From the NCBI RefSeq assembly GCF_019649055.1, contig NW_026570252.1:992001-1056000 (forward strand): a DNA stretch of 64,000 bases. The letters are read 5' to 3'. This DNA is from Paramacrobiotus metropolitanus (Eukaryota; Tardigrada; Eutardigrada; Parachela; Macrobiotidae). Of the stretch, positions 1,970 through 58,283 are shown piece by piece. How positions within the stretch are numbered: position 1 is the first letter of the stretch; every line of letters starts with the position of its first letter. Under the pieces are notes generated by a model. That model was not told the origin of the DNA. It did not search any database and was given only the letters and a program-made list of their open reading frames with translations. Both the position numbers and the translations under genes were made by a program.

Positions 1970-2000
1970 GGTCGGGGAGTATCGGCAACTCACCTGACCT
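1957..2000 (+). promoter_or_regulatory. -1 programmed ribosomal frameshift signal between gag and pol
   Basis: The heptamer GGGAAAC at 1957-1963 is in the gag reading phase as G GGA AAC, the X XXY YYZ form of a -1 slippery site, one sense codon before the gag TAA. A -1 slip enters exactly the frame that stays open through the protease segment to 3603. After a 5-nt spacer (1964-1968), 1969-1980 pairs with 1988-2000: AGGTC/GACCT, one G-T wobble, GG/CC, one bulged A (1992), GAGT/ACTC, with a 7-nt loop at 1981-1987. Slippery site, spacer and stem all match known retroviral and retrotransposon signals. Activity is inferred. Confidence 0.7.
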
Positions 2001-2052
2001 AAGACCGGAACCTAAACCGCCGGACATAACCCCTGTACAGTTACTAACCCCC

Positions 2053-3603: not shown

Positions 3604-4358
3604 TAACACTCCGAAGACAAGTGGCCCAACATCCTGGCTTAACCGTCAGCATATGGCCGAAATATGATCTGAGCCTGACTTACGTCAGGACCATACCGGA
3701 ACCATTGCCAGAAGCAGCACCGCATATAGCGACAAAAGTGCGCTTCAATGATGGCCCACACCCGGAACAGGGAGGCCATCGAAGGGACACCAGCCAGAAC
3801 GAGCAGGACCCTTCGTCGGAGGAAGTCCAACTGACCTGTCCTCTATGTGGAGACGGCGTTGAAGCAGTAATACGGGCCATACAGACCCGTTCGGCTCAAC
3901 GTTGGGCAGGAGGCCGACCAGCCTCGCCACTCCCTAACGGGAGCCGTCCAACCACTTTGGCGGAACCGGACGAACCTGAGAAACAGGAGATCGCAACCGG
4001 GACGCCAGAGATCCAAAAAGTGGATCCTATGACCACACCGACACCAACGGTGACCGGCAGGCCGCCAACCTCTAACGAGGACAATGGCGAGCCAAAACAT
4101 GAGCAGGACGATAAACCCGAGTCTACCGATTCGGACGTCCAAAGCTCAAGTGACTCACCGGACACGGACTCCGATAACCAATCATCGGAGGAGTCAAGTG
4201 ATGACGAAGAGGACACAGAAATTCTCCAACTCCGGGCCGAGGCACCCATAATCCGCAAACTGCGGACCGAACGTCCAACGGACTGCCTTAAGGAGGAGAG
4301 AAGCTGTCTTCGTCCACCAGCGGTACACCTTACCGGCATACTCAACCTGCTGGATTAA
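3501..4358 (+). CDS. pol: Pol segment 2: acidic linker between protease and reverse transcriptase (frame-shifted piece)
   Basis: This frame overlaps the end of the protease segment, lies -1 to it and +1 to the reverse transcriptase segment. The simplest reading is one original frame broken by two compensating indels, near 3550-3603 and 4270-4358; in Element 2 the corresponding region is continuous. It contains a CPLC motif (near 3837) and a long Asp/Ser/Glu-rich stretch (about 4090-4230). No enzyme domain is recognised. ATG 3501 is probably not a genuine start. Confidence 0.5.
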   Translation: MGGRTSSPSVGIQRVPHGSSKSTPKMCTDLFDNIITLRRQVAQHPGLTVSIWPKYDLSLTYVRTIPEPLPEAAPHIATKVRFNDGPHPEQGGHRRDTSQNEQDPSSEEVQLTCPLCGDGVEAVIRAIQTRSAQRWAGGRPASPLPNGSRPTTLAEPDEPEKQEIATGTPEIQKVDPMTTPTPTVTGRPPTSNEDNGEPKHEQDDKPESTDSDVQSSSDSPDTDSDNQSSEESSDDEEDTEILQLRAEAPIIRKLRTERPTDCLKEERSCLRPPAVHLTGILNLLD

Positions 4359-4377
4359 GGTCCGGTCCTATCGGACT

Positions 4378-5949
4378 ATGGACCCGGGACGGCCAATCCA
4401 CTTCAAATCGCTGAGACGACCACACCGCTTGGTCCTACCGATCGAAGCGGAGGTCCAAACTCGAAATAGCGAACATGCGTGGATCCAGGTCCAAAATAAG
4501 TCCCGACGCGACCAAATCCTCCGTAAAGGTGCAAAAATCGGCCACATGTACTACAGTGACATGTATGAGCCAGACATCAAGGAGGATGGAGTAGATTGGT
4601 CAATTCCCAATGCCGACGCCCTACCATGGCCAAAAGTGGCAGGGAACAATCCTAATCGGTACCGCATCATTAATGACCATGCTATGGTCCGGGCAACTGT
4701 AAAAGTGGAACTCCCACCGGAGTCCATCACCCCGGTCCAAGTCAGCATTGACTTCCCTGTCGACCCAAGACAGAAACTTATGTACCTCGGAAGCCAAGAC
4801 ACCAAACGGAGTCTGGCCATGCTCGACGGACCAGTCCAGCATGATGGCACTAGTTTCACCATACTGGTGTCAAACTACTCCAAAGAGCCCCATATACTCC
4901 GGAAAGGAGTCAACATGGGCCAAGTGGAGCCATACGAGGAAATCTCGGACGAAGATTACGCCAAGATCAATTCCCTCCAAACCGGAGAGGAAGATCCAGA
5001 AGTGGAACGCGAAATTCGCGCCCACATCGCCAATGCACATTTTGGCGACCACCTGACCGAGGAGCAGACCGCTCTACTCCGTCAGGACTTATGGGAACTC
5101 AGGGCCATATTCCCGACGTCCAAAAAGCCTTACGGCGACGTCAAAGGAGTGACCCACGTCATAGAAGTTGGCGACGCTGCACCAATCAAAATGAACCCAA
5201 CCCGAACGAGTTGGAAGGGACGAGAGTTCATCAATAAGCACGTCCAGGAAATGTTGGACCAAGGCGTGATTGAACCGTCCATGGCAGCGTGGAGTTTCCC
5301 AGTGGTCCTCGCTTCAAAGAAAAACGGCGACGGGACCATGGGCACCCGGTTCTGCATAAATTATATAAAGCTGAACACGGTGACCAAGAAGAACAATTAT
5401 CCATTGCCCAATCCAGACGAACTCCTGGATCAATGCGCAGGAAACGCCTACTACGGCAAGGTAGATTGTCAGTCCGGATTCTGGCAAATCCCTATGGACC
5501 CAGCGTCCATGGACTACACTACCTTCGTGACTCCAGAAGGGATGTTCCGGTTCAAACGAATGCCGTTTGGCGTCTGCAATGGGCCAGCCACTTTCCAAAT
5601 GACAATGGATAGGATCGTTGCGCCGGCCCGCAAACAAGGCGGCGTCTTCGCATACATCGACGACGTGATATTCTTCGGCAAGACATTCGGGGAATTCAGG
5701 AAGGCGTTCAGAAACACGCTCCTCTGCCTCAGAGACGCCGGATTCACGATAAAACCGTCGAAATGCGAATTTGGAATGGAAAAACTCCAATTCCTTGGAC
5801 ACATCCTCAGTAAGGATGGTGTCCACACTGACCCCGAGAAGGTAGCGGCCATCGCCGAGAAACTACCGCCCAAGACCGAACGTCAACTTCGCTCGTTTCT
5901 TGGACTCGCTAACTATTACCGGAAGTTCATTCAGGGCTACGCCCAGTAG
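4378..5949 (+). CDS. pol: Pol segment 3: reverse transcriptase
   Basis: 523 codons; the frame is also open upstream of ATG 4378. About 220 residues of linker resemble the same part of Element 2, followed by a Ty3/Gypsy reverse transcriptase: the WSFPVVLASKK region, RFCINYIKLN, NYPLPNPDELL, FWQIPMD, the hallmark MPFGVCNGPATFQ, and the catalytic YIDD box at codons 5653-5664 (residues 426-429). The connection GFTIKPSKCEF...LGHILS and FLGLANYYRKFI follow. It would copy element RNA into DNA. It stops at TAG 5947-5949 just after FIQGYAQ, where Element 2 reads straight on into RNase H in the same frame, so the stop is either a mutation or a readthrough site. Confidence 0.9.
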   Translation: MDPGRPIHFKSLRRPHRLVLPIEAEVQTRNSEHAWIQVQNKSRRDQILRKGAKIGHMYYSDMYEPDIKEDGVDWSIPNADALPWPKVAGNNPNRYRIINDHAMVRATVKVELPPESITPVQVSIDFPVDPRQKLMYLGSQDTKRSLAMLDGPVQHDGTSFTILVSNYSKEPHILRKGVNMGQVEPYEEISDEDYAKINSLQTGEEDPEVEREIRAHIANAHFGDHLTEEQTALLRQDLWELRAIFPTSKKPYGDVKGVTHVIEVGDAAPIKMNPTRTSWKGREFINKHVQEMLDQGVIEPSMAAWSFPVVLASKKNGDGTMGTRFCINYIKLNTVTKKNNYPLPNPDELLDQCAGNAYYGKVDCQSGFWQIPMDPASMDYTTFVTPEGMFRFKRMPFGVCNGPATFQMTMDRIVAPARKQGGVFAYIDDVIFFGKTFGEFRKAFRNTLLCLRDAGFTIKPSKCEFGMEKLQFLGHILSKDGVHTDPEKVAAIAEKLPPKTERQLRSFLGLANYYRKFIQGYAQ

Positions 5950-5958
5950 ACTTCCAAA

Positions 5959-7677
5959 ATGTATGAACTCCTGCGGAAGGAAAGTTCGGTCAAGAACGAC
6001 TGGACTGACGCCCACACCGCCGAGTTCAATGAAATCAAAAAGGCCCTAACGGAAGCCCCAATATTGGCCAAATTCGATGCGACCAAGCAGACCACCATCG
6101 AATGTGATGCAAGTGGTGCTGGCATCGGAGCCATACTCAGCCAGGACTCGAGGCCAATTGCCTACGCAAGTCGTGTCCTACATGGAGCTGAGAAGAACTA
6201 CGGCGTGACCGAATGGGAATGCTTAGCCGTAGTATGGGCCGTCCAAAAGTTTAAGCACTACATTGACCACGGACCATTCACAGTAAGGACGGACCACAGA
6301 GCCCTAACCAACCTGCTTAGATGCGAGTCTAACCGGCCCGGCATCAACCCTCGTCTTACTCGATGGGCCCTCGCCTTACAGGGACGGGACATCACCATCG
6401 AGTACAAGCCAGGCACATTCTGCGACAACGCCGACGCCTTGTCCAGATGGCCACTCGAACGGGACGATGATAAAGGTCCACACGAAGAGTTGGATCAAGT
6501 CCCTAACTTCGAGGATTATAAAGACGAGATTCCAGCACGCATCATAAAGGTGCGCAGGCTGCAAGTAACTGACGAGGACCCCGCAGATGAATGGGACAAG
6601 CCTCTCCTTCCTGATTGTAACGCAATCAGCGATTGGAACGAATTCAGCACGGCGGACATACGGGTCATTAACGTACCGGCACCCACACCGGGAGAACCAG
6701 AGCCCGAAGTCCCACCGTGTCCAGAAAAAGTTACGGACCGCACCGCGCAAGAACTGCGACGGATGCAACATCGTGACCCAACTCTGGCCAAGAAAATCCA
6801 CGAGTTGGAACATCAAAGTGAAATGGATAAGAGGTCCAAATTACCCGAACACTACCAGATGGACAAAGGTGTGCTCTACCGACTCACCGAAATCAACGCG
6901 AAACTCGAAAGAAGATTCGTTGTCCCTCTGTTTATGCGGAAAAACATTATCCAGTCCCTCCATGACGGAAAAACAGGGAGCCATTTTGGATACCGCAAGA
7001 CCATCGAAGCAGCCAAACTCAGGTACCACTGGGACCGCATGAGCGGCGACATACACGACTACATCGATCGATGTCAGACGTGTATCTTCGGCAAAGTACC
7101 GCGGCGAGCTACCTACGGTAAGCTGCAGCCGACCGAAGCTGTGGCGGCTTGGTACCGCGTCTTCGCCGACTTCAAAGGACCTCTACCGGTGACCCAAACC
7201 AAGAAATACCGGTACATCGCTGTGGTGGTCGACCAAATGACGAAGTTCACCATACCCCAGCCGACCAAGACAAACTCGGCCAAGGAATTTGAGAAGTTCT
7301 TTGTCGAAGAAGTCGTACTAAAGTACGGCATGCCGCATACCATGCACTCCGACCGGGGCACGCATTTTACGGCAAAATCTTTCGCCAAAGTGGCGAAAAT
7401 CTTCGGCATCGAGCAGACCTTCGGATCCGCTTATCATCCAGAGGGCCAAGGCCAAGTCGAACGCCAGATGCAAACGATCTGGGACGGAATTCGAAACTTT
7501 GGCGGCGCCGGCGACGAACATCGTTGGCACCGGGCCCTACCCTACGTGATCTCCGGCATGAACCGTGCCGTTCACGCAACTACTGGATTCTCGCCATACC
7601 ACATGCTATATGGACGAGAAATGACCATACCACAAGACGTCCTCGCTGGGACCAACGTCCCAGAAACTTACGACTAA
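5959..7677 (+). CDS. pol: Pol segment 4: RNase H and integrase
   Basis: Same frame as the reverse transcriptase, beyond the TAG. RNase H: ECDASGAGIGAILSQ, then the TDHRAL region and DNADALSRWP. Integrase: zinc-binding part with HDGKTGSHFG and CQTC, then the catalytic core with Asp codon 7168-7170 (FADFKG), Asp codon 7351-7353 (HSDRGTHF) and Glu codon 7459-7461 (QVERQM). The spacing of 61 and 36 residues is the D,D(35)E arrangement and is the same in Element 2. All three catalytic residues are present. It would insert the cDNA into the host genome. The frame ends at TAA 7675-7677 inside the domain, and the homologous reading continues in the next frame, which points to a single-base indel near 7675. 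Confidence 0.9.
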   Translation: MYELLRKESSVKNDWTDAHTAEFNEIKKALTEAPILAKFDATKQTTIECDASGAGIGAILSQDSRPIAYASRVLHGAEKNYGVTEWECLAVVWAVQKFKHYIDHGPFTVRTDHRALTNLLRCESNRPGINPRLTRWALALQGRDITIEYKPGTFCDNADALSRWPLERDDDKGPHEELDQVPNFEDYKDEIPARIIKVRRLQVTDEDPADEWDKPLLPDCNAISDWNEFSTADIRVINVPAPTPGEPEPEVPPCPEKVTDRTAQELRRMQHRDPTLAKKIHELEHQSEMDKRSKLPEHYQMDKGVLYRLTEINAKLERRFVVPLFMRKNIIQSLHDGKTGSHFGYRKTIEAAKLRYHWDRMSGDIHDYIDRCQTCIFGKVPRRATYGKLQPTEAVAAWYRVFADFKGPLPVTQTKKYRYIAVVVDQMTKFTIPQPTKTNSAKEFEKFFVEEVVLKYGMPHTMHSDRGTHFTAKSFAKVAKIFGIEQTFGSAYHPEGQGQVERQMQTIWDGIRNFGGAGDEHRWHRALPYVISGMNRAVHATTGFSPYHMLYGREMTIPQDVLAGTNVPETYD

Positions 7678-7696
7678 CGAACGATACGTCAAGAGG

Positions 7697-8716
7697 ATGC
7701 AAGAGCGCCTGAACCGGGCGCATGAAATTGCGAAAACGCGGATCGAAGAAGGATTCCTCAGGGATGCGGCTATCTACAATAAAAAGAAGTCGCAGGCCGA
7801 GTTCAAGAAGAGGGACTTGGTCACCCTGAAGAATATGGTAGACGACCCGACCAACCCAAACAAGTTCGAAGGCGTCTACATTGTCATCGGCATACCCAAG
7901 CCGAACACTTACTGGATCCGAGAGCGGGACACTGGTGTGGAACACACCGTATGTGTCGATCGCCTAAAGCCATACCTTAACCCGGACGGCCCGAGTCGCA
8001 GAATAACTCGCTCAAGCAAAAAGAGAGGCGGCGACGCCGAACCGGAAGGTACAGAGTCGGAAAGGTGCAACAACAAGGCAGAGCCGGGACAAGATGCAGA
8101 GCTCCCACACGCCCAGAATAAACTGGAGAAACTGCTGAAGAAGCAGAAGCCCGGAAAGGGCCCGTCCAAAAAACTTGTGGCGGAGCAGCAAAAGACTCTG
8201 CAAATCCCAGGCTATGGCCCACCTGACCCAAAGACTTCGGACCCAGCAACAACAGTGAAGCGTGGCCCAGGCCGACCTCGAAAGGCCAAACCGGATTTCG
8301 AGACACCGGCGCTTCAAAAGCTTCAAAACCAGCCATTAGCCGTCATTGACCCAACTTTGGCCCCGGCGGAACCAGAAAAAGGGACATCCGCCACGGACAA
8401 GCCAGCGGTGACCGCAGAGCCAAAGGTGGCCACGGCGCCCAAAGAGAAGCCTAAAAGACCAAAAACGCCTAAAAAGCCGAAGGCAACCCTTACGGCCCAG
8501 CAAGTCCTAGAAGAGGACGCAGTTGCTGAAGATGAGGCGGATAAAGACTTACTCACCCGTATAACCACGGGACGGGAAAAATCTGAGAAGGTCTTAAAGG
8601 GCAAAAAGCAGAAGTCCAATACGCACCCACCGGGCGTATCGGACCAGTCCAGTACAGTCCCACCGGATGTACTGGACAAGGCGGTTGATAAGGCTGGACA
8701 GAATGACATAAAATAA
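7697..8716 (+). CDS. pol: Pol segment 5: integrase C-terminal domain and basic tail
   Basis: 339 codons in the +1 frame relative to the integrase core. The start matches the end of Element 2 pol: a helix with RAHEIAKTRIEEGFLRDAAIYN, here 7709 onward, then the small beta-rich domain (KRDLVTLKN ... VCVDRLKPYLNPDG). A Lys/Pro/Ala-rich tail of over 200 residues follows, including a Gly-Arg-Pro AT-hook-like stretch (KRGPGRPRKAKP) and repeated PKK/KRPK motifs. I see no chromodomain. The tail would suit DNA or chromatin contact, which is an inference. ATG 7697 is probably not a true start; the frame is open upstream. Confidence 0.75.
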   Translation: MQERLNRAHEIAKTRIEEGFLRDAAIYNKKKSQAEFKKRDLVTLKNMVDDPTNPNKFEGVYIVIGIPKPNTYWIRERDTGVEHTVCVDRLKPYLNPDGPSRRITRSSKKRGGDAEPEGTESERCNNKAEPGQDAELPHAQNKLEKLLKKQKPGKGPSKKLVAEQQKTLQIPGYGPPDPKTSDPATTVKRGPGRPRKAKPDFETPALQKLQNQPLAVIDPTLAPAEPEKGTSATDKPAVTAEPKVATAPKEKPKRPKTPKKPKATLTAQQVLEEDAVAEDEADKDLLTRITTGREKSEKVLKGKKQKSNTHPPGVSDQSSTVPPDVLDKAVDKAGQNDIK

Positions 8717-8938: not shown

Positions 8939-8950
8939 GTGATTCGTCTC

Positions 8951-11900
8951 ATGACAGCGCCCCATTCAACGATGGAAGGACGTCGACGAACTGATCGCTC
9001 AGATGACTCCGACCGAAGCAACCGACCACATCCATATTCACGACCGAAATCCCGGTCGGGCGGATCTTCCACTCGGTCGTCTAACCGGCCTCCGAGTGTA
9101 CAGGTACCGAATATCAGAGCTAACTTAACTGCTGAGCAGTTTACTACTATGTCAGTCGGCCCCAGTTCACGGGCCGACACACCGCTACCGCGGGCACAGC
9201 CTCTGCCACCTCGAGCCATTCCGCCACAGTATTGGCCGCCAGGGACATTCTCTGACGATACCGGACTCTTGGTCAACGCAGCAGTAGCTGGCAGCCAGCC
9301 AAGCTCTACGTCGGGCCAAACGGTCCGACGTTATCCTCGTGGCCCAACGGGCCCACCTCAACCGATTCTGTATGGTGGCCTACCGACCACTTCGGCAAAC
9401 CAGCCGGTTGTTACAACTGCGGCAGTCGGGCCAACGGTCATGACTACGCCGGTCCATACTGGACCGCGGCCACAGTTTACTCCGCCGCCATACTACAATC
9501 CACATTACGGATATCCACCGTACCCTGCGCCTGGACCTTCAAACCAGCCGCAGCCAGATCCAAACCAATTGCGATACCCACCACCGTGGATGTATCCGCC
9601 AGGACCTTATGGATATCCACCGCCTTATGGCGGATATGGAGCATACGGCCAACCGCCGTATAGCCCACCTTCAGCGGCACAACCTGACCCTACGGGCCAG
9701 GCGCCGTCTGACTCATCCATTGAGCCTCCACGAGCGGGACCGGAAGCGTATGTAACTCCAGCGCCGCCGGAAACCCAGCCAAGCACATCACGGCCCGACG
9801 GGTTACGTGATTACCCATTACGGGTATTCGTGGACGGCCGACTAACGGTTTACAACCGGCCAGAAGAGGTTCCACCAGCATTGGCGGCCCAACTTGGCTT
9901 AGCCGAACCGGAACCAGTGGCAGGGCCAACACTGAACCCAGTGTTGACCGGGCGCGACCAGACTGTCCCACCGACAGAACCTGTGTCGTCGCCAATGCCA
10001 GATGAAGAGGAAGATGAAGGGGACGTCCAATGGGATCCAACCACCCCACCAATGAGGACTGAATCCCCTACAGAACTTTTGGCCGACGGACGGACTCCAC
10101 TCTACCAACTTCAGGACAATCTGAAGGAGATGGAGGACGCTATCCAAGAACTGGAGACTATCATTCGAGAACTCGATCGAATTGGTCCTCACTACCGTGA
10201 GTTGATCCAGAAGATCATTATCGATCAAGAAGAATGCAGGCGCCAAGCGCATGAACTTAGCGAAGAAATCGCAACCCGCCGGGCCCAGCACGAAATCTTC
10301 CCGTTGCATGACCAGACCGGTCAGGCCCTATTGGCGGCATCGCAAAGATTAAGATGGCGACTGGAGCAACACAAGATGGCTCACCGGTTTAGAACCAGGG
10401 CCAAAGAAGCCACAGCGCCATCACCATCACCGCCTCCACAGAACCCAACAGTCGTAGTTACCACTACGACAGGGGAATCTTCCGCGGCACCAGTGGCCCA
10501 GCCTACGTCTACCGACGAGGCAATGTTAACGGCCACTGGATTGGAACCGCGAGAACCGACATCATCTCCGTACGACCTGAGGGCTTATCCAGACATACTG
10601 CCTCTGGAACGCGAACTTCACGCGGCGGAACTCCTAGAGGAGGAAATCCGCAAAGCTATCACCAGTCTGAAAGGCGTGGACATCGCCACTATGCGGAGAA
10701 AAGTCGCGCTAGACTTAGAATTCCAGCGCGTCCTGGAATATAGAACCAGGATTCGACGGGCCATGCTGCGATTTATGGATAGGCCATTAAACACGGCCAA
10801 TGACGCGCCAGCATCGCGCGATTTCCGTAACCGGCAATATCAGCTTGGCCTGATCGACGAAGCACTCAGGCGCGTGTTACCTAAACCCCGACCGGGGCAG
10901 CCAACACGCGTCGGACAAACTGGACTTCTCACGCCGACACTTTCCTCAACACGCCAACCGGCGGAAGAATTGAGGATGCGGTTTTTGAGAATTATGCGGA
11001 TCTCGGCTAAACGATTTGCAGCCGGACCGGCACTTAGTCGACCAGCCAGCGCGTCGGACACAGAAACCGACAGCGACATCGAATGGTTCGACATGCCAGA
11101 TCCAATCCCAGTACCAGGATTAACAGCTCCGCCCGATCATATGGTCGCGCCAGAACGACAGGTCCACCCTAGACCTGGTTTACTGGCGCCGCCACCAGAA
11201 ATAGCGGAACGCCTGGAACTAATTATGAGGGCCAACGTCACGCAAGGCAGACCGGCTTATGCGGACGACTTCCCTGTGTTAAACCAACTGGTTAACAACA
11301 ATCAACCGGCCCCTCGGACTTTACGTCAACAATGGGATGACGAACAAGCAGCAGCGGACCAACGGTTACGCGAGGCTGACACCGGACCCATTAGGATGAC
11401 GATCCCTCAGGCAATGAGGAATAGAAACCTCATTAGAGATGCCGAGGACATTGACCGTCGCCTAACTAACCGGATCCAAGATCTCAGCCCATTCGACCCA
11501 GAAGCGGTCAGGCTGACAGAACAGCAACAGAGCCTTACCCAACGGTTGGTTCTGCTCAGGGATCTTACTCCGAACAGTACGATGCCTACCGGTCAATCGT
11601 TAACTGTTTTGGACCACACCACAAGATGGATCCGTGAATTCATCGAAGATTACTGGAAGGTCCAACGACCTGGCCCGTCAACGACGGCACGCCCCAGTGA
11701 CTTCGACCCAGTAAATGAATGGCGACCATCACCAGTGTCTGCGCCAGCACCTTTGGCCCTGACATATGAACCGGCCGCCTTACCATCAGTTGGACAGCCA
11801 ATTCTAGCTGAGTTGGCCCAGGCCCTAACGGTGCCTGATCCAACATCAAGTCAATCCGTGGACACTGCTGGACCTGCTATAGCGGACAGCAGTATAGAAA

Positions 11901-12280
11901 CTCTACAGCAGGACGTTGAAATGGACGTGAGCCTGCCGGATAAAACTCTCGAACTTTCGCCGGAGAAGCCGGCTGAACCGTCGACACCAGTCCAACCGGC
12001 TGGTGAACCGACAAGTCCAATGGCTGTTGACGCACCAACGGTGTCATCACAGCCCACCTCGAAACCAATCGAAGGCGACACATCTGGTGGCACCCTTGTT
12101 GTCCGACCAACGGACAGGAAATCCACAGGAGGAAGGCCAGAACCAGCCACTCCTGCCACAACAAGTGGTCCACAGTCGCCCAGGTTCAAAAGAAGAAGAG
12201 GACTCCTCCAGAAGTCGAAGAGCCTCCTTCGCAGCAGTCACTCCCACCTTGGAGAGAACCGCGTGAAAACCTGGAATTAA
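8951..12280 (+). CDS. ORF A: Pro/Tyr-rich low-complexity protein with coiled-coil segments
   Basis: About 1109 codons from the first ATG (8951). Not a known family. An Arg/Ser-rich start is followed by a long Pro/Tyr/Gly stretch (9470-9700, many YPP, YGYPP and PPY repeats) of the kind found in phase-separating proteins. Charged heptad-like helices follow at about 10100-10420 (DNLKEMEDAIQELETIIREL) and 10600-10780, then Pro/Thr/Ser-rich sequence to the end. From 12007 the -1 frame is also open and leads into ORF B, so A and B may be one protein. In Element 2 a shorter Pro/Gly/Arg-rich region is fused in frame to the domains of ORF B, which supports this. It has no transmembrane segment and no envelope-like features. 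Confidence 0.7.
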   Translation: MTAPHSTMEGRRRTDRSDDSDRSNRPHPYSRPKSRSGGSSTRSSNRPPSVQVPNIRANLTAEQFTTMSVGPSSRADTPLPRAQPLPPRAIPPQYWPPGTFSDDTGLLVNAAVAGSQPSSTSGQTVRRYPRGPTGPPQPILYGGLPTTSANQPVVTTAAVGPTVMTTPVHTGPRPQFTPPPYYNPHYGYPPYPAPGPSNQPQPDPNQLRYPPPWMYPPGPYGYPPPYGGYGAYGQPPYSPPSAAQPDPTGQAPSDSSIEPPRAGPEAYVTPAPPETQPSTSRPDGLRDYPLRVFVDGRLTVYNRPEEVPPALAAQLGLAEPEPVAGPTLNPVLTGRDQTVPPTEPVSSPMPDEEEDEGDVQWDPTTPPMRTESPTELLADGRTPLYQLQDNLKEMEDAIQELETIIRELDRIGPHYRELIQKIIIDQEECRRQAHELSEEIATRRAQHEIFPLHDQTGQALLAASQRLRWRLEQHKMAHRFRTRAKEATAPSPSPPPQNPTVVVTTTTGESSAAPVAQPTSTDEAMLTATGLEPREPTSSPYDLRAYPDILPLERELHAAELLEEEIRKAITSLKGVDIATMRRKVALDLEFQRVLEYRTRIRRAMLRFMDRPLNTANDAPASRDFRNRQYQLGLIDEALRRVLPKPRPGQPTRVGQTGLLTPTLSSTRQPAEELRMRFLRIMRISAKRFAAGPALSRPASASDTETDSDIEWFDMPDPIPVPGLTAPPDHMVAPERQVHPRPGLLAPPPEIAERLELIMRANVTQGRPAYADDFPVLNQLVNNNQPAPRTLRQQWDDEQAAADQRLREADTGPIRMTIPQAMRNRNLIRDAEDIDRRLTNRIQDLSPFDPEAVRLTEQQQSLTQRLVLLRDLTPNSTMPTGQSLTVLDHTTRWIREFIEDYWKVQRPGPSTTARPSDFDPVNEWRPSPVSAPAPLALTYEPAALPSVGQPILAELAQALTVPDPTSSQSVDTAGPAIADSSIETLQQDVEMDVSLPDKTLELSPEKPAEPSTPVQPAGEPTSPMAVDAPTVSSQPTSKPIEGDTSGGTLVVRPTDRKSTGGRPEPATPATTSGPQSPRFKRRRGLLQKSKSLLRSSHSHLGENRVKTWN

Positions 12281-12399: not shown

Positions 12400-15300
12400 T
12401 TGACCCTTCGTGGCCTACCGGCCAAGAAGAAGAAGTCGCCGCCGAAGAATTTTCCTGGCAAGGGACATGTGCTCTCCCCACCGGAAGCACCAGCGATTCC
12501 GTCAGGAACAACCCAGCCACTGCGGGACGAACCTCCAACGAGGCATCGCATCCGACTGACTCAAACGGAGTCATGGGATGACCCGCATAACCGGGCTGTA
12601 AGCGAGATCATAGAAGTTGATCTACGCTTAAACCTGACTGAGGAGGATATGCGCCAGCGACTACGCGCCGGCGATCCTACATTAACGGACCGTGAGATTG
12701 ACCGCATCAACCGAGGTTGTCAATTGATGGTCCAAGAACGAACAATCCTCATCAGAAAGCTGATGGCCATGCGGAGCAAAAGCCAGGCCCTTCGCCAACG
12801 CAAGTTGCCTAGCGAAATTATCGAGCACGCCATCTATATCAGGGGCCCACACATCAATCCAAGGGCATGGACAGTTGAACCGCGCCCACGACCAGGCCAG
12901 CCAGTGGAAGACGAACTGCCACCGGAAGAGGCAGAAAGCGAGGACGAACGTCCTCAACTGCCGGCGGCCTTCTGGGGCGTCTCGTCAAGTGAGGAGTCGG
13001 AGAATGAAGAAGACTTGGACGAACATGTCCAAAGGGCGTTATACGAGACCAGTCAGGTCCGGCCACCTTCAACGAAGGAATCGCCACGCCGAAGTCGATC
13101 TCCGTCAAAAAGAACTTCTCCTGGACGCGCCACATCAACCCCGGCGCGAATGCCCAGCATGCCGGCCATCGAACCGGCGCCTGCCAGGTTCACACCGAGC
13201 CGGCCAGGCAAGTCCCCGACCAAAGAGAGGATGGACACCACACCTCCTCAGCAGCCAACCATGACCATTACTGTGGAACGAATCGCAGCACCTACGGTGT
13301 CTGCAGGTTCACCACTTGAGCCAGTAACGGTCACGGTCAGAACCCCTGCACCAGTGGTCGCAGAATCGGCCAGAATGATGTTGCAGATAACTCCGGCTGT
13401 CTCGGACCAAGAAGAGGAAACCGACACGGCCCTGATGCCCATGAGTGCTCTCACTCCTACCGAGCAGAGACACTTATACGTCCACTCTGACCAAAATGAA
13501 CGACGGCGATACCGGTTCCTGCTCACAAAGAGACAGGAGGCGAAGGAGCAGAATAACATGGAAGAATATGACATGTTATCCGAGATGCTCGCGCCATTAA
13601 TTTACCGAATGGTAAAAGATTACCGGACCCGTCGCAATCAAAGGGCCTTTCCCCCACCAGAGCAAGACCCAATGATGACTGATGCCCTGCTGTCAAATGC
13701 CCCACTGATTGTGGTACCGCCAAAGACGCAGGTACCCCCAGCTTCAGAACCAATGGATACTTCTCCGTCCGGACCTGTGGCCATGGAGCCTCGGCCAAAA
13801 CCAGTCCAACAGGAGGAGCCACCGAAGGCCACTTCGTCGGCACAAGAATCGGCAGGCCAAAGTCAGTCCGGAACAGGGCCAACGGCCGCTGCTCCGACAA
13901 TATTGACGAACATGCCCGCCAGTGTCGACGACATACCTTTTGGCCGTCCAGTAACTTTCCCCATAACTGGGACATTAGATAATTTGGCACTTGGCATGGG
14001 TGTGATCCACTCAGCTAACTCCCAACGGAGTAAGCAGCCAAGGAAAGCCAAGAACCCAGAGAGGGCCAGACCGGCCTCTCGTCCAGCTTCTCCTCAACCG
14101 AGGGCCAAACCGGCCACTCGCCCAAACTCCCCTCAACCGAGTGGAAGTCAGGCGGCCACACCTCGGCCAACATCTAATCCAGAGGCCAAACGTAACCGCC
14201 AAAAGAAACAAGCGGCCAAGGACAAGAAAAGTCAAGAGGCCAAGATCGCCCAGCTTGAGAAGCGGCTGTCAGGCGATGAAGACGTCCAAGTCCTATCGGA
14301 CAGTCCAGATAAACCAGCAGAGCCCGCATTAAATCGCTCACGGCGGGACGAGGAGTATGAACCACGCTGCGGGACAGAACCGCCCTCAGAAGAAGTCATG
14401 CTTCCCTCGCCATGGGACGATGAGGCCGAGCTACCGGACCCTGGACCGGAGGCCACACACATAGAGGTCCCAGCGGATCACTATGTGCGATTAACCGTGG
14501 CAGCCGCCAGGGCTATGAGACGCGCAACAGGACGAGACATGTACCAATGCCTCGTCTGCGTCCTCCGGTCCCGTATGAAGTATAAGGAAGAATACCAGGG
14601 CCTACCGGCTGCGGACCGTGTACTAACGGCACCATTTATACGGCGGATGGTATCCCGGATTCTGGACATGGGACTTCTGGTCCGCACACACCGTGATTGG
14701 ACCAGTATGATGGAACTTCACGTGGCCAGTCGGCCAGCAGGACTTTCCCGCAGCCGGGATTTTCCTTTCCATCAGATATGCAGGACCATCGCTTACCTGC
14801 ACAACCCAAGAGGGTCCAACCTGACCGATATCGCCAGGACACTCAACGCTCTCTATTACCTTGGAGAGGAGAACCTGGATAAACTCACAACCAGATTGGC
14901 TGATGAGCTAATTGCGCTGGTTAGGGAAGGAACCCTGGAAACGACCAACGCACATAGGGCGGAACCAATTCGCTTCACCATTCCGGGATTCATCCCACAG
15001 AAGACCCAACGGTCTCTGTATGTGTCACACGACGTTGACACAAATTGGGATCCGGACAGAAAGAAAGCGGTTGGACCGCCGAAGGACAAGCTGACCGGCA
15101 GAGCCAAGGAGGCTTACTTAATCTCCCAAGAGGCCAAACTGCCAGGTCCAAAGAACTTGCCGGTTGAAAAGCCCCCTCGACCATCGGTCACTAGAAGGGA
15201 AAAGGCTGCACGGCAAGAAGTTGAAGAAGAGATGCGCGCGGCCGGAATCCGACCCGTGCCAAGGGACACTGTGTCACTGCCTAACGCAGCTGGCCAGTCC

Positions 15301-16560
15301 AGACCTCCTTCACCGACTCCATCAGCCACATCAACTAATAGTCGAAAGACTACGGCCACAAAGGCCACGGCTGCAAAGAGGAGCGGGAGGAAGGGCCCGC
15401 CACCACCGGGCCGAGACGTATCGGACTCCGAGGACTCCGAACCGGAGGACTCGGAGAAGGAACAAGAAGAAGAGCCGGACCAGGACCAAACTATGGAATC
15501 CCAAAAGTCCGACTCGGATGACAATGATGACGATGACCAGAGCCCTGGTAAACTGACCATTAACGTTCCATCGGACCACGACACGGAAATCCCACCTGGT
15601 GATGAAAATCAGCCACCTAACGGTGACCAGGATATGGAGGACCAGGGCGGTGCAGAAGGCGCCAGTCAGGACCAAAGTGGCGCAGACGGCGCCGATCGGG
15701 AAAGTCAGGCCAGCGTAGAAGACGCTGAGCCAAGTGGAAGCGGTGCACAGCCCGAACGGGACAGAGTGCGAGACTCCACCTCACCAGAATCAAATGACGG
15801 TGAGATCCAGTGGACCTTACCCGACCCATGCCCGGCCAAACCGCGCATAGATTATGTGCCGCCACCAAGAACCAATGTGGCGAGGAAATGGCCCGGCGGA
15901 GATCCATCAAAGAAGCCGAAGATCTCCAATACGGACGAGACGTGGGCATATATTAAGGCAGCCTTAAAGGCGTTGTCCCAAACGGGCACAACCCTTGCTA
16001 CAGGAGGCTTGGCCTTCCAGCTCATCCAGAAATATAATGGCCCACCAGTATCCAAGTCCAAGGTGATGAAATACATCAGAATGGCCTATGAAGAAGGAGC
16101 TATCCTTCGAACCCATCTGCCTAACATGCAGATGTTTTACACGTTCCCACCGGAAAGACGTGACGAAGCGCCTCAAGGCTATTGGGAATGGCAAAATGCC
16201 ATCTTGGCGGTACTGACCACCACGCAACATCCCTTGGGCCTGACAAGAGGTGAAATGGCCAACCAACTCCTTGGACGATATGACGTACAACTTTCAACGT
16301 ACGATCCTCAGCTGAGTGCCGGGAACGAATATCCCCCTAGTCGCCCCAACGGGTTGTACTACCTCAGCGAAGACGTACGATACATCGTCAAAAAGATGCT
16401 GCGCGAAGGCTGGCTCGAGCAAACTGTTGACGAGCCAGAAGCCCAGCAGCGTTACCGGATGAAGAATAATCCACCGGATCGCTATGGCCCTCGTCCCACC
16501 GAACCCGCCTCCTTGGCCTCAACCAAGTCCAAGAAGAAGCGGCGCACTTACCATCAGTGA
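12400..16560 (+). CDS. ORF B: large protein with two winged-helix plus linker-histone (H15)-like modules
   Basis: The frame is open from 12007 and overlaps the end of ORF A; codon 12400 is TTG, and the first ATG is about 80 codons further on, so expression may need a frameshift, or an indel has split A from B. About 690 residues of Pro/Ser/Glu-rich sequence with basic patches come first. Residues about 694-780 look like a SAMD1/KAT6-type winged helix, and 785-870 like an H1/H5 globular domain (ICRTIAYLHNPRGSNLTDI). Acidic Ser/Asp/Glu linkers follow (15421-15780). A second pair is at about 1179-1255 (YIKAALKALSQTG) and 1260-1365 (WQNAILAVLTTTQHPLGLT), then a KSKKKRR tail. These resemble modules that bind DNA or nucleosomes. 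Assignment is by motif reading against Element 2; module 1 is clearer than module 2. Confidence 0.6.
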   Translation: MTLRGLPAKKKKSPPKNFPGKGHVLSPPEAPAIPSGTTQPLRDEPPTRHRIRLTQTESWDDPHNRAVSEIIEVDLRLNLTEEDMRQRLRAGDPTLTDREIDRINRGCQLMVQERTILIRKLMAMRSKSQALRQRKLPSEIIEHAIYIRGPHINPRAWTVEPRPRPGQPVEDELPPEEAESEDERPQLPAAFWGVSSSEESENEEDLDEHVQRALYETSQVRPPSTKESPRRSRSPSKRTSPGRATSTPARMPSMPAIEPAPARFTPSRPGKSPTKERMDTTPPQQPTMTITVERIAAPTVSAGSPLEPVTVTVRTPAPVVAESARMMLQITPAVSDQEEETDTALMPMSALTPTEQRHLYVHSDQNERRRYRFLLTKRQEAKEQNNMEEYDMLSEMLAPLIYRMVKDYRTRRNQRAFPPPEQDPMMTDALLSNAPLIVVPPKTQVPPASEPMDTSPSGPVAMEPRPKPVQQEEPPKATSSAQESAGQSQSGTGPTAAAPTILTNMPASVDDIPFGRPVTFPITGTLDNLALGMGVIHSANSQRSKQPRKAKNPERARPASRPASPQPRAKPATRPNSPQPSGSQAATPRPTSNPEAKRNRQKKQAAKDKKSQEAKIAQLEKRLSGDEDVQVLSDSPDKPAEPALNRSRRDEEYEPRCGTEPPSEEVMLPSPWDDEAELPDPGPEATHIEVPADHYVRLTVAAARAMRRATGRDMYQCLVCVLRSRMKYKEEYQGLPAADRVLTAPFIRRMVSRILDMGLLVRTHRDWTSMMELHVASRPAGLSRSRDFPFHQICRTIAYLHNPRGSNLTDIARTLNALYYLGEENLDKLTTRLADELIALVREGTLETTNAHRAEPIRFTIPGFIPQKTQRSLYVSHDVDTNWDPDRKKAVGPPKDKLTGRAKEAYLISQEAKLPGPKNLPVEKPPRPSVTRREKAARQEVEEEMRAAGIRPVPRDTVSLPNAAGQSRPPSPTPSATSTNSRKTTATKATAAKRSGRKGPPPPGRDVSDSEDSEPEDSEKEQEEEPDQDQTMESQKSDSDDNDDDDQSPGKLTINVPSDHDTEIPPGDENQPPNGDQDMEDQGGAEGASQDQSGADGADRESQASVEDAEPSGSGAQPERDRVRDSTSPESNDGEIQWTLPDPCPAKPRIDYVPPPRTNVARKWPGGDPSKKPKISNTDETWAYIKAALKALSQTGTTLATGGLAFQLIQKYNGPPVSKSKVMKYIRMAYEEGAILRTHLPNMQMFYTFPPERRDEAPQGYWEWQNAILAVLTTTQHPLGLTRGEMANQLLGRYDVQLSTYDPQLSAGNEYPPSRPNGLYYLSEDVRYIVKKMLREGWLEQTVDEPEAQQRYRMKNNPPDRYGPRPTEPASLASTKSKKKRRTYHQ

Positions 16561-16751: not shown

Positions 16752-18689
16752 ATGGGACTTACACCACAGCAGAAGTACGAGCCGCGATGTTCGGACTGCA
16801 GACGCAATAGCGGAGACCAGAACCGCCGGGACAACTCCCCACGGGAATTGTTCCCTTGCGCATATCACCTGCGGCCGGGCTTCCGCGACGAGAATGATAG
16901 AGCCTACTGCTTCTACTTGGAAGTGGTGAGAGGCAACTTCGATGCATACTGCCACATGACCAGCCGTGATGGAAGCCACCTGTTTCCCCTACTGAGGGAC
17001 TACGAGCAGATAGAGATCTACGATCTCTACATGCAACGCAGTGGCGCCCGACAACCTGGCTGGAGCAGCACCGGGACTCAGATTCCTCCACTCAGCCAAT
17101 CGGCTCGAGAACGAAAAGAGGAACGACACCGGGAACGTCGAGCCCGTAACGCGGGTTCTGACCAGCCCTCAGGGCGCGGCCCAACGGCCGCCCCGAGAAC
17201 ATATGGACATCAGCAGCGGCCATCGTCAGGCTCTCAATCCTACGGATATGAGTTGTCTACACCGACGACATACAATCAGATCCTGGAAAACATCAACAAA
17301 GCTATGGTTGACCAGGCGGCCAAACAGCTGATGGAAGGTGGACTGCTGGACGCCTTGAAAGGACAGTATCCGCCAGCGCGTACCGAACAGTACGCGCCAC
17401 TGGCACCGCTACCGAGGAACCCAGATGACTTACGTCACCAGATACAGAGCCGCAACCAGAACCAAACTGGCCGCCGTAGCCAGCCCGAGGAGCGCCAAAC
17501 GCGCACATCACCCGGAAAACGGAGCGAGGCAGAGTCCAACCTGATTGTCGCTCAGTCCACCAAGCGACCAGAACGAAGTGTCAGCTCAGTGGCCCACAAT
17601 ATCAGCATCCAGATACCGATGGAGACTGAGTCCGCACCGCCGTCATCGGACCTACCGGCCCGACAAGACGCAAGCGTTAGTGCCACGGACTTCGACCCAT
17701 ATAAACATGCTGAGGACCAGGGCATCAATATCCGACCACGTCCCCATCGGGAGGTGACGGACTACATCATGGGCGCTATCCCATACCCTAGGGAGCGATG
17801 GGCCCAACTTAACGCCATGGTCCAGAACTTGCAAACCTTCGTCATCCGGTCCGGCCTCGAAATGAAGATGCAGAAAAAGGAGTGGCCCCGTGCTTTCAGC
17901 ATGGCGGAACACACCGAAAACCGCGAGGGCTATCCAATGGTCCGTGACAATGCTCTATCGAGCATCACGGACGTGAACTTACTCGGACAGCCCGTTACCA
18001 GACCGGACTGGAACGACTTGTGCCAACTGCACATAAAGGACGACCAACTCGACGTCGTCAAATATCTGGCCCAGTTTGTCCTACCGGACGCAAACGCCAG
18101 CTTCATAGTCGCAGCTTCACGAGCCGCCATGGAAATCCCATGCAAGCCGGCCGATCACAAGGAGGCCCCCGGGACGTACACTTACTCGTATAACGGCACG
18201 ATGATACGCATCTTTGCCGCCAGACTGGGACACTTACGGTGTCACTGGAAACTTGAAGTTGCCTACCGGCAGGGGAAGATCATTCCTCGATTACTGACTC
18301 AGGTGGCCCTCCTTGGAAATCAAATTCATGAAATCGAAGCGGAAGTCAAAATTCAAAGCGCCCTGAACGTTTTCAGGAGCCGCGCCAAAGACTACCGTTA
18401 TCGCCATCCAACGGACTTCGACGACGGTGCGGAAGCGTTCGTCAACCGAACGGCAGCGCGGAAACTTCCAACGAAGTTTCGCACCCAACGATCCTCAACA
18501 GGATCGTCCGCACACGTCCAGACCCAGGCCGAACAGTCTGGCCCAGAAGTCCAGCCGACCAGCACCTCCAGCCAACATCAACATAACCTGACTGAACAGG
18601 AATTGGTGGACATGGAGGAAAGCGTCGTTGACCCACTCAACCCAGGGTTGGGCGACGGCGACCAAGCCGGACAAGGAGGGCAGGAATAG
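16752..18689 (+). CDS. ORF C: zinc-finger-like protein conserved between the two elements
   Basis: 645 codons from ATG 16752. The N-terminus has C13-x2-C16 and C36-x2-H39, a probable zinc site. Next is FYLEVVRGNFDAYCH, which aligns with FYEAILGNVAAYLEF in Element 2. The middle is Gln/Arg/Ser/Pro-rich and disordered. Residues about 412-500 are a helical block (VKYLAQFVLPDANASFIVAA, IFAARLGHLRCHWKLE) that aligns with Element 2 (YVLQFILPETNPALFFLAC, VFAARLGHFNSHCELA). The tail is acidic and Gln-rich. There is no signal peptide or membrane segment, so it is not an envelope protein. The alternating Leu/Ala/Phe helix pattern could suit a structural or nucleic-acid-binding protein; the role is unknown. 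Confidence 0.75.
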   Translation: MGLTPQQKYEPRCSDCRRNSGDQNRRDNSPRELFPCAYHLRPGFRDENDRAYCFYLEVVRGNFDAYCHMTSRDGSHLFPLLRDYEQIEIYDLYMQRSGARQPGWSSTGTQIPPLSQSARERKEERHRERRARNAGSDQPSGRGPTAAPRTYGHQQRPSSGSQSYGYELSTPTTYNQILENINKAMVDQAAKQLMEGGLLDALKGQYPPARTEQYAPLAPLPRNPDDLRHQIQSRNQNQTGRRSQPEERQTRTSPGKRSEAESNLIVAQSTKRPERSVSSVAHNISIQIPMETESAPPSSDLPARQDASVSATDFDPYKHAEDQGINIRPRPHREVTDYIMGAIPYPRERWAQLNAMVQNLQTFVIRSGLEMKMQKKEWPRAFSMAEHTENREGYPMVRDNALSSITDVNLLGQPVTRPDWNDLCQLHIKDDQLDVVKYLAQFVLPDANASFIVAASRAAMEIPCKPADHKEAPGTYTYSYNGTMIRIFAARLGHLRCHWKLEVAYRQGKIIPRLLTQVALLGNQIHEIEAEVKIQSALNVFRSRAKDYRYRHPTDFDDGAEAFVNRTAARKLPTKFRTQRSSTGSSAHVQTQAEQSGPEVQPTSTSSQHQHNLTEQELVDMEESVVDPLNPGLGDGDQAGQGGQE

Positions 18690-19005: not shown

Positions 19006-19280
19006 CGGCCCGCATAGAAGTTGCGACAAGCCGTGGATCGATCCTGGCCCGCATAGAAGTTGCGACAAGCCAAGGATCAGCCTGGCCCGCATAGAAGATG
19101 CGACAAGCCAAGGATCAGCCTGGCCCGCATAGAAGATGCGACAAGCCAAGGCCAAGTCCTGGCCCATAGAAGTTGGACCAGGCCCGCTGTGTGTCCAACG
19201 GACCATACGCGGCTCACGAGTTTAGTTGCCATACCAGGCAACTGGGACAAGTGAGTAAGGGAGCCACATAGAAGTTGTGG
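19006..19280 (+). repeat. Array of six TAGAAGT/TAGAAGA-loop hairpins in the 3' region
   Basis: Four near-tandem hairpins (19006-19033, 19040-19078, 19084-19109, 19122-19147) share the inner stem CGCA/TGCG and outer stem GGC/GCC; the second also has a GATCCT/AGGATC closing stem. Loops are TAGAAGT in the first two and TAGAAGA in the next two. Two more have different stems: 19158-19182 (CCTGG, CCA / TGG, CCAGG) and 19264-19280 (CCACA/TGTGG), both with loop TAGAAGT. The loop is the same as before ORF A. Confidence 0.65.
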
Positions 19281-19769: not shown

Positions 19770-20990
19770 ATATCAGAGAGCCAAAACCTGTTATACAGGA
19801 CCCCCACGTCCCACACCAGCCGGAGGCGAGCCACATCACAACGGAACCCCGTATCCCGCCCCAGAGCATGTCAGAGACCGAGTTTGGACCGCCCCAACGG
19901 GTTTGGTCCATTACACCACTTCGGTCCTGGGACTTAGAAAATTTTTCCATTGTGGCCCTCGTGGACTTAGAAGATTTTTGGACCTAGGCGCATGACCAAA
20001 CTGGCATGCAAAGCCAAAGCGGTCCAAGTTAGAGACCCATGTGAACCGCCCTAACGGGACTGGTCCAAAGCACCAATTTTGGCCACTGGGAAGGAATCCG
20101 ACAGGACTCCCACACCCACTACACCAGGGACAACCCTAACGGGTCAGGTCCAACAGAGGCATGTCAGACCAAAGCATGGCCATCCTAACGGAATTGGTCC
20201 AAGCACACTAATTTGGTCACAGGAGCACCTCTCCTGTCCAGAGGCATCACTCTGGCCCATCATGGACCGCCCAACCGGGCTTGGTCCACCATATTGAACC
20301 AGGAAGGGGAGAACTTGTCCTTGCAAAAGCAATAGTGCCTTCCATATACCGCACCGCTGGATTTACTTCACTGGACCCCTGTGGACATCTCTGGGAACCG
20401 TCGCCCCGGATCTACAGGACCAGACCAATCCTACCGGATAAAGCGGACCGTTGACTAGGACCCGTGTGGACAAAAGTGGCCCTGTGGTAACCCTAGTCGG
20501 AATAAGCCATTTTACGTCTAGTTTTTTAACCATACCTGGTTTTTCTAGACTTTATTAACCAAAGAATTGATGTTTTTATTTAGCCAAATAACCAAAGGAA
20601 TTGGCTTTGGGATCTCTAACTATGATCTTACTTTCTTAAACTCTCACCGAAATTGTGATTTTTCTATTTCGATGTTTAACCAATGAGCCTTACAAACTTT
20701 ATTCTTTTAACTGTTCGACCAAACCAAGCCTTCAAACCACACTGGAACCCCCTGCAACCAGAGTGCACTCCAGATTTCGGCCGTTAGGTGCACTGCACCG
20801 CGGGTCTGGAGCAACCGACCCTAACGGGTTTAGAGACAAAGTGGCATCCGGCCCTACCGGGTATCGGATCCTGGCACCCTACCGGGTTGGCCAGGGGCAG
20901 AGTCGGAAGGTGCTCGCAGGAGCTCCCACTCCCGCCCAGAGGCATGTCAGAGACCGCACACTCGAGGCGGTAGACACCTCTTGTGGCTTT

Positions 20991-21564
20991 ACGCGTTCTT
21001 CCCTCGTATGGGAACAACGCCCTCATTGGCTGTGATAATTTAACATCACAACCAATGAAAATTGTGAAATACCGGATTACACGGCTCGATTATACTAAAA
21101 TATTTAGTAGCGCCTAATTAGTAGCACCTAACCTCATATCGCGTTGCTATTAAAAAATTTAGTAGCACCTAGATATACTGCACTGCAATAAAATATTACT
21201 AGCACCTATTTAGTAGCACCTAGACATGACCTACATCGCATTACTATAAAATATCAGAACACCAAATTAGTAGCACCTAGACATAACTTACACGTGGCTA
21301 GAAATAACCTAGAAATATTTGTAGCACCTAATCAGTAGCACCTACATATATTGCACGTGCATTGCAATTTGCAATAAAATATTAATAGCGTCTAATTAGT
21401 AGCACCTAGACGAAATTCGCATTGCAAACGCGAATTTATTAAACTATTTAGTAGCACCTAATTAGTAGCGCCTAGACGGTAGTGTAATGAGCCCATTTCG
21501 CAATTTCTATTGGTTGTGATCACAGCCAATGAACGCATTGTTCCCATACGAGGGAAGAACGCGT
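20991..21564. mobile_element. Mutator-like non-autonomous TIR element (MITE) with 10-bp target duplication
   Basis: The 574-bp element begins ACGCGTTCTTCCCTCGTATG and ends with the inverted copy; the first 27 bp are perfect inverted repeats and weaker pairing extends to about 75 bp. It is flanked by identical 10-bp direct repeats TTGTGGCTTT (20981-20990 and 21565-21574). Duplications of 9-11 bp are typical of Mutator-like transposons. The interior is AT-rich and built of repeated units around TAGTAGCACCTA, with no coding capacity. It sits in the 3' flank of Element 1 and is therefore younger than that sequence. Confidence 0.8.
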
Positions 21565-21574
21565 TTGTGGCTTT

Positions 21575-22964
21575 GCTCTGTCGCCCGCCCGCACATGGCT
21601 ACTCCATTCGTGCCGCGCTATTACGCTGCTCACTCAGCGTATACTTTGTCTACGCTGACCAATCAGCGTATTTCTGCACTCTTGGGGGCGTAGCCCAGCG
21701 CTTACGAGCGATTCCATGCTTTACGGCATCAGCTGTTGCATACCTGCAGCACGCTGAATCATTAATCACGATTCTCACGAGCTCGCTGGCAGCTACTTTC
21801 CACAGCTTAGACCGCATTGGTTTTCTGTGTTTGTTTGTGGTTGCTTTATTGTTACCAATAAAGGCATATTTTGCCCCATTTTCCATCTGCTTCTGTGTCT
21901 TATCTGACATCAACTTCACCTTTACCTTTGCCTTTGCCGCCGCGAACACCTTACCGTCCGAATTAGCCTTTCCAATAAACCTTCCTAAATGACCTTTACC
22001 GTTGGCTTTAGACGTTGCATGACAGACTGCCGTCAAACACTCTGCCGTTTTTTTATCATTATTGACATCAAACAGTTAAACAATAATTATTAATTTATCA
22101 AGACAGCCGGTTAGCATTAGGTATACTTTTTGATCGAGTAAGCTGTGTAGCCACATCAGGATTAACTTGTTTTGGAATTTTCAAGGCTAGTTTTGCAGGT
22201 GTAACGGCACCTTCATCAAACCGTAGACGCTTTGACGTCACAACGTAGAAATTCGACATCTTACAGGTCACATCGATTTGGAGAGGATTATGACCGAAAT
22301 TATGTGGCCAAACCATACATATTTTAGCAACATTCAGGAATCGGTATCCTGAAGCCGACTTAATAATAGGTAGGCTAGGATATATTCAGGATATCTATGA
22401 CTGACTGCTAACACTCAAGCGAAATAGATGTTTGTATGGAACTCATATTTGAAGATAGAATCAGATTGTGTTAGTATAAATAGTAAGAGACGCTTGCCTT
22501 ATCAAATATTAATAATTCTACAAAACCCTTAAAATACTGATACTGTATCGGCAAAATTTATTTAATCGAAGGTTAAGTGAGTAAAATTTACCTTTTTGCG
22601 CTGTCAGCGACAGCAATTAAGGAGTGCTCACAATGTAGTTGACATTGGCCCTATCCGAATCAAACGCGCAAACAACCACGCTAGCGTTTTCGGCTGGGCC
22701 AGTCATGTCCAGTTTGCCAGTGTTTTGCAGTTTCCAGTCTTCTGACGTACGAGATAAATCGCTTTGCCCCCACTGTTTCGATAGTATAGATTCCATTATT
22801 CTTTTGATTCTAGTTAATATGCTGTGAAAAAGGGATAAGGCGTGCAGTATATACAACCAAAAGTGGCTACCTTGTTATAATTATTTACAGTAATACCAGT
22901 ATATAAAGCAAAAATTTCATAATTTTTCATGTCGAAGATACAACAGCGCTAAAAAATTTCGGAA
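21575..22964. other. Non-coding stretch containing one arm of an inverted repeat
   Basis: After the TIR element the sequence is moderately GC-rich to about 22040 and includes AATAAA at about 21857. It then becomes AT-rich. The left arm of the inverted repeat 21911-22040 / 22973-23102 lies here. I see no convincing gene. Confidence 0.4.
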
Positions 22965-55724: not shown

Positions 55725-55763
55725 TTTACCGGTACGTGAAAAAAAAAATTCAAAAATATTCAC

Positions 55764-58217: not shown

Positions 58218-58283
58218 GTTATTCTGGACGACAAAAATAACATAAAATAATCCCAACTAGTCCGCGTAATTATTTCTCGGTAA

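Follow-up and report, generated by a model that had tools for sequence, protein, structure and literature searches.

Positions 12400-16560 of a 64,000-nucleotide stretch from the tardigrade Paramacrobiotus metropolitanus (the window; contig NW_026570252.1, here C32, positions 992,001 to 1,056,000) form the 3' part of a Ty3/Gypsy long terminal repeat (LTR) retroelement, which we call element 1. They contain an open reading frame, ORF B, whose product is predicted to carry twice the same order of domains, a winged helix (WH) of the SAMD1/KAT6 type followed by a linker-histone-type (H15) domain. Both the order and the two pairs, at about residues 694-870 and 1179-1365, had been proposed in an initial annotation made from the sequence, and both held up in shuffle-controlled profile comparisons, the second pair more weakly. 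Searches covered the genome assembly (169.8 Mb, 533 contigs, numbered with a C). The features of element 1, in window coordinates unless a contig is named, are:

12400..16560, plus strand: ORF B, two predicted WH-H15 pairs with an acidic/low-complexity linker between them
14479..14715, plus strand: predicted winged helix 1 (SAMD1/KAT6-WH1 type), residues ~694-772; profile match to element 2-type and host sequences, invariant wing Trp
14716..15009, plus strand: predicted H15 1 (linker-histone type), residues ~773-870, with NPRGSNLTDI; profile matches
15934..16185, plus strand: putative winged helix 2, residues ~1179-1262; 17-row pair-2 profile against the element 2-type profile
16186..16497, plus strand: putative H15 2, residues ~1263-1366; profile comparison, ratio of nonsynonymous to synonymous substitution rates (dN/dS) 0.05-0.12 against four copies
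8939..12280, plus strand: ORF A, 1113 amino acids (aa), proline-rich; probably in the same frame as ORF B in relatives
16752..18689, plus strand: ORF C, 645 aa, Cys/His-rich N-terminus; homologue in element 2
404..8716, plus strand: gag and pol, ORFs 404-1969, 2053-3603, 3501-4358, 4378-5949, 5959-7677 and 7697-8716
C32:988394-988774, outside the window: 5' LTR, 381 bp, TGTCAG..CTGACA
20945..21909, plus strand: 3' LTR, with an inverted-repeat insertion of 574 bp (20991-21564) inside it

Pfam matches to RVP, RVT_1, RT_RNaseH, Integrase_H2C2 and rve place protease, reverse transcriptase (RT), RNase H and integrase in the order of Ty3/Gypsy elements, and the pol genes of the window copy are broken up into several frames. 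Positions 404-1966 and 7697-8713 gave no Pfam match at E<=0.01; the former were assigned to gag by eye from position and sequence. Element 1 spans ~25.5 kb, inserted piece included, with the target duplication TCAA at either side, and its 5' LTR is followed by TGGTAGCAG, which we take to be an initiator-Met-like primer site. The two pieces of the 3' LTR sum to 391 bp, fitting 381 bp plus a 10-bp duplication, and the LTRs are 100% identical across matching stretches of 346 and 47 bases, which indicates a young insertion. The distance between LTR starts in other copies is 24.5-25.7 kb on C6, C8 and C22, and elsewhere 22.0 kb (C115), 28.4 kb (C151) and 17.2 kb (C187). The observed/expected CpG ratio is 0.86-1.42, showing no strong depletion. 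Membership of the chromoviruses was rejected, as no chromodomain match at E<=0.01 was found by Pfam at the integrase C-terminus (7697-8713 of element 1, pol of a second element described below). Likewise, an errantivirus-like element with env was rejected: a simple hydropathy test of ORFs A, B and C found no envelope-type transmembrane stretch, the highest 19-residue mean being 1.23.

The piece inserted into the 3' LTR ends in 46-bp inverted repeats, contains internal repeats (AGTAGCACCTA) and is bordered by a ~10-bp repeat, TTGTGGCTTT. The left flank of element 1 (L065:2345-2393) matches window positions 23161-23117 in inverted orientation, adjoined by inverted-repeat arms at 21910-22050 and 22963-23103; element 1 seems to have landed within an older inverted-repeat element, window 21910-23161. 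Its 3' non-coding part also holds tandem 38-47-bp repeats with GGCCCG at 19007-19165 and 19582-19767.

ORF B of the window copy lies in a stop-to-stop frame of 1509 aa that overlaps ORF A in another frame; its TTG start is a product of the bacterial ORF table. In five relatives (C6 twice, C21, C23, C110), the frame at the same domain pair measures 2540-2559 aa, which by its length has room for both A and B. In relatives, ORFs A and B thus probably form a single frame of ~2,550 aa, with ORF B at its C-terminal end; the A-B frame of the window copy, by comparison, looks broken, and copies in which it is intact seem to exist. Accordingly, the retroelement protein of the initial annotation stands in so far as the ORF is present in a Ty3/Gypsy element, but intact copies probably do not make ORF B as a protein of its own. 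ORF A of element 1 has no Pfam match, nor do its ORF C and the ORF at the C position on C91 (L099:6473), which resembles ORF C by eye only. ORF C is shared, by phmmer, between element 1, element 2 (55763-53999, minus strand) and copies on C103, C16 and C30 (L100:2046, L101:503, L102 minus 874), being present even where ORF B was not found (C16, C30), and may be a more general accessory protein of the lineage than ORF B.

Element 2, the second element in the window, lies on the minus strand at 63.7-54.0 kb with ORF B after pol; its LTRs were not found within the stretch examined:

58284..62900, minus strand: pol, 1538 aa, with protease, RT, RNase H and integrase in the Ty3/Gypsy order (Pfam)
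55983..58256, minus strand: ORF B, 757 aa, two predicted WH-H15 pairs (pair 1 57353-56787, pair 2 56450-56034)
53999..55763, minus strand: ORF C region, overlapping frames 55763-54522 and 54850-53999

Single sequences of element 1 revealed little about ORF B. Pfam returned nothing useful (only Shugoshin_N, E 1.2), pair 1 gave no useful match among PDB chains (a weak MarR match, E 0.012), and matches to CTCF and other PDB entries in such searches were judged to be chance. A protein database search with ORF B of element 2 scored 7991 candidates, none at E<=1, and a viral contig search gave no match. Single-sequence AlphaFold models were helix-rich and too poor for judging the fold (mean pLDDT, the predicted local distance difference test score, 42.2 for residues 685-1386 and 54.4 for pair 1 of element 2). 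ORF B of element 2, in turn, matched the Pfam family Linker_histone (PF00538) with 31.7 bits (E 1.8e-7, cut-off 22.4) and, below the cut-off of 24.5, SAMD1_WH (PF21524) with 21.1 bits (E 3.5e-4). Linker_histone was also the best Pfam match in all six further ORF Bs, above the cut-off in three (L022, L026 and L012, a copy of element 2) and below it in L018, L037 and L099; the match in L026 lies in the second pair. SAMD1_WH again stayed below its cut-off in L018 (16.5 bits) and L012 (16.9 bits).

We then compared profiles with hhalign, using 24 pair-1 rows picked from 59 stretches (12 element 1-type, 12 element 2-type), 17 pair-2 rows and 14 host first exons, each comparison being controlled by 100 column shuffles. 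The element 1-type profile matched the element 2-type profile (probability 93.9, E 2.6e-8), which in turn matched the host profile (probability 99.4, E 5.2e-20), with the reversed profile and the shuffles scoring far lower; the element 1-type profile also matched the host directly (probability 54.2, E 1.9e-5). Pair 2 matched the element 2-type profile (probability 57.7, E 1.4e-5) and, weakly, the host profile (probability 12.7, E 5.4e-4). None of the 100 shuffles reached the score in any of these five comparisons. Pair 2 against the element 1 pair-1 profile was not significant, two of 100 shuffles reaching the score. In ORF B of element 2, the profiles matched residues 302-490 and 607-721. From these matches, pair 1 is securely predicted to be a WH-H15 pair, and the same assignment is supported for pair 2 by a single element profile out of two and, weakly, by that of the host.

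The host sequences belong to a multigene family encoding a KAT6-like WH, H15 and, by eye, zinc fingers (C7:1485322-1518640, C7:1739295, C91:470795-488206, C3 and C86; L041-L053). SAMD1_WH matched the host genome above the cut-off at 13 places with up to 65.3 bits, many of them clustered on C7 and C91; the best match (C66) is by eye a different gene. In the cluster genes, the first open stretch encodes the WH and the first half of H15, and further stretches the rest of H15 and the zinc fingers (by eye). Against the PDB, the WH of one host gene matched KAT6A (7y43, 4.3e-12) and ZMYND11 (9loa, 1.9e-4). WH and H15 of the elements each match the cluster genes separately, and host and element sequences share the domain order and align over 125 columns. 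The host genes differ in lying outside retroelements, in carrying zinc fingers, in grouping with KAT6A and ZMYND11, and in an open frame that stops inside H15, the remainder following in a further stretch, presumably after an intron. Such an expansion seems atypical of KAT6-type modules and might itself be a response to the elements.

Outside the elements, a single H1-type Linker_histone match stood among the host matches listed, in a first-look search that also missed the elements' own H15. Host H1 was rejected as nearest relative and as donor because it matches weakly and in H15 only, whereas the KAT6-like host genes match over WH plus H15; 11 of 14 host H15 halves scored above host H1. The kinship supported is thus with a host module resembling the KAT6 N-terminus, whose domain order the initial annotation had pointed out, and not with plain H1. 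In a tree of 43 rows, the 14 host rows and human KAT6A and ZMYND11 stand apart from the element pairs (89/96). This phylogeny separates elements from hosts; it is midpoint-rooted and subject to a long-branch warning, and the capture of a host gene suggested earlier is one possible direction of transfer. A Trp in the wing is invariant in all 24 element pair-1 rows and was not seen by eye at the equivalent place in the 14 host rows or KAT6A, which points to pair 1 having arisen once among the elements. Together, these comparisons give good support to a shared ancestry of the element pairs and the KAT6-type WH1-WH2(H15) module, and suggest that the elements co-opted a host module to reach chromatin.

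A genome search with pair 1 hit at least 151 places, and 19 of the first 39 RT matches listed have a pair match ~4-5 kb downstream (by eye). Six copies without a listed match, a non-random sample, were fetched for their 3' region, bringing the lineages or copies considered to 13 (elements 1 and 2, L018, L037, L022, L026, L078, C91, C103, C16, C30, C25, C22). The high-copy C91 family, with 59% RT identity to element 2, has ORF A, ORF B and an ORF at the C position, its ORF B scoring 54 bits in pair 1 and, weakly, 12 bits in pair 2; on C103, ORF C is accompanied by an ORF B whose single pair is diverged (12.9 bits). No ORF B was found in C16 and C30, where ORF C directly follows the pol tail or the site where that tail would be. 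Within the 4.5 kb taken from C25:656200-660700 (L115) and C22:1389800-1394300 (L116), no further long ORF and no match to B or C follow the pol tail; the RTs of both are close to the L018 family, and the copies are possibly derivatives borrowing ORFs B and C, or decayed. Families at ~40% identity in the pair-1 search, which lie outside the RT sample, also carry ORF B. An RT tree of 14 rows joins element 1 with C91 (100/100) and gives little resolution among the others. The presence of ORF B on both sides of the element 1/C91 split would fit an old gain with losses; repeated gains are also possible.

Comparing the window copy with four others gave dN/dS values of 0.05-0.32 over the four domains, some dS values (1.66-1.83) being near saturation. 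Purifying selection therefore maintains ORF B, with no clear excess of constraint on the domains over the linker. The elements combine kinship to chromatin-binding domains, purifying selection and many copies with the absence of a chromodomain match and of an envelope-type hydrophobic stretch. As these two absences make it our first choice, we tentatively propose, at somewhat less than an even chance, that ORF B is the C-terminal part of a Ty3/Gypsy accessory protein that tethers the integration complex to DNA or chromatin in the nucleus. Such a protein would enter the nucleus, where its winged helices would hold the element's complementary DNA (cDNA) or integration complex on host DNA or nucleosomes, and it would contact integrase and influence integration, doing as a separate protein what an integrase-fused chromodomain does. 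In MORF, according to passages of PMC9908889, WH1 binds unmethylated CpG linker DNA and WH2 binds at the nucleosome dyad, the affinity of the two combined being nanomolar, and the WH1 mutants K19/K21/K22 and K24/R26/K66 lose DNA binding or bind more weakly.

Several observations weigh against such a tether. Linker dN/dS (0.15-0.20, four copies) overlaps the domain values, and that of WH1 (0.29-0.32) exceeds the linker in two of four comparisons. A strongly basic linker-histone globular domain was not found: pair-1 H15 carries a net charge of -5 to +2 over 24 rows compared with +8 in host H1, and pair-2 H15 one of -3 in element 1 and -6 in element 2. These neutral-to-acidic values make binding to the nucleosome dyad doubtful; host H15 halves range from -6 to +5, with 13 of 14 at 0 or more. 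WH2 has +3 in element 1 and -1 in element 2. The SAMD1/KAT6-type CpG-reading loop is likewise missing from most element 2-type rows, where K66 is kept in 0/12, K24 in 3/12, and a basic residue at 26 plus P27 in 3/12 (element 2, L018, L037); host rows keep R26 in 13/14 and K66 in 6/14. Hence, the KAT6 mode of CpG reading has probably gone in most families; WH1, on the other hand, is still basic in elements 1 and 2, which counts in favour of the tether. Finally, ORF B was seen in nine and not found in four of the 13 lineages or copies and would thus be dispensable or supplied in trans; nor does a retrotransposon group defined by this protein, as raised in the initial annotation, emerge from this distribution.

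Two close rivals share these data. Doubtful, though the better of them, is a role in DNA packing, in which four winged domains would coat or bend a long, ~25-kb cDNA in the particle or pre-integration complex, without any targeting. Four tandem domains of DNA-binding type, the LTR distances of 24.5-25.7 kb and the finding that MORF WH1-WH2 changes nucleosome FRET (Förster resonance energy transfer) as H1 does (PMC9908889, in part) speak for it, but element 2 is much shorter and has the same protein, and the H15 domains are without net positive charge. We consider it unlikely that the protein is instead a transcription factor or anti-silencing factor, a self-regulator that would attach to the element's LTR or to host promoters and either recruit chromatin enzymes or block them. 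KAT6 WH1 directs KAT6 to promoters (PMC9908889, in part), and a trans-acting function would be in keeping with C25 and C22, near relatives by RT that yielded no ORF B; most CpG-reading residues, however, are lost. Less probable still, the winged folds may now be protein-interaction modules that no longer bind DNA, for instance in particle assembly with ORF A or C. This would agree with the neutral or acidic H15 surfaces, the loss of K66 and, mostly, of R26, and the frame that ORFs A and B probably share in relatives, but WH1 is still basic (+8 in element 1, +6 in element 2), and the element 2, L018 and L037 rows retain the basic/Pro loop. That the pairs merely resemble WH-H15 domains by chance or composition is scarcely credible, since the missing Pfam match in element 1 itself and the low-confidence AlphaFold models are outweighed by the shuffle and reversal controls, which contradict it for pair 1, and by Pfam matches above the cut-off in element 2 and relatives.

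Chromoviruses are Ty3/Gypsy elements that read chromatin through a chromodomain fused to integrase. They resemble the present elements in carrying a chromatin-reader-type domain, which here lies in a 3' frame and not on integrase, has a different fold and comes without a chromodomain match; the chromodomain is named as an accessory domain in a passage of PMC6338049. The N-terminal WH1-WH2 of KAT6A/KAT6B (MOZ/MORF) likewise consists of a SAMD1-type WH followed by an H15-type WH (PMC9908889, in part). The element proteins differ in that the module is duplicated, sits in a Ty3/Gypsy context, has the wing Trp and mostly changed CpG-reading residues, and lacks DPF or MYST matches; in particular, no MYST Pfam match, as expected of a KAT6 acetyltransferase, was found in ORF B of element 1 or 2. 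Orchid 25-kb Gypsy elements carry an N6-methyladenosine demethylase ORF and are thus also large Gypsy elements with an additional ORF belonging to a cellular family, but with an enzyme domain and in a plant lineage, and the abstract passage of PMC9289625 does not mention WH or H15. No retroelement with such a protein was recognisable among the literature matches listed, in a search outside which subscription papers and preprints lay, and a main-text term search of the tardigrade transposable element paper PMC11071193 found neither 'histone' nor 'Paramacrobiotus'.

Elsewhere in the window, two related ORFs (43937-44617, plus strand; 50309-51043, minus strand; phmmer E 3e-68) match the immunoglobulin V-set with 26.2 and 27.9 bits, just above the Pfam cut-off of 26.

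A bolder version of the proposed integration tether, possible though on the doubtful side, is that an animal retroelement lineage acquired a nucleosome-reading WH1-WH2 module of the KAT6 type from its host in a single event, as the shared wing Trp would suggest, and doubled it. The module would then be a tether apart from integrase that replaces the integrase chromodomain, and some relatives, having lost it, would rely on it in trans. If true, the KAT6-type tandem would be a second solution, unrelated to the chromodomain, for how a retroelement meets chromatin, and the diverged WH-H15 pairs, with and without the CpG-reading loop, would offer a natural set for testing those residues.

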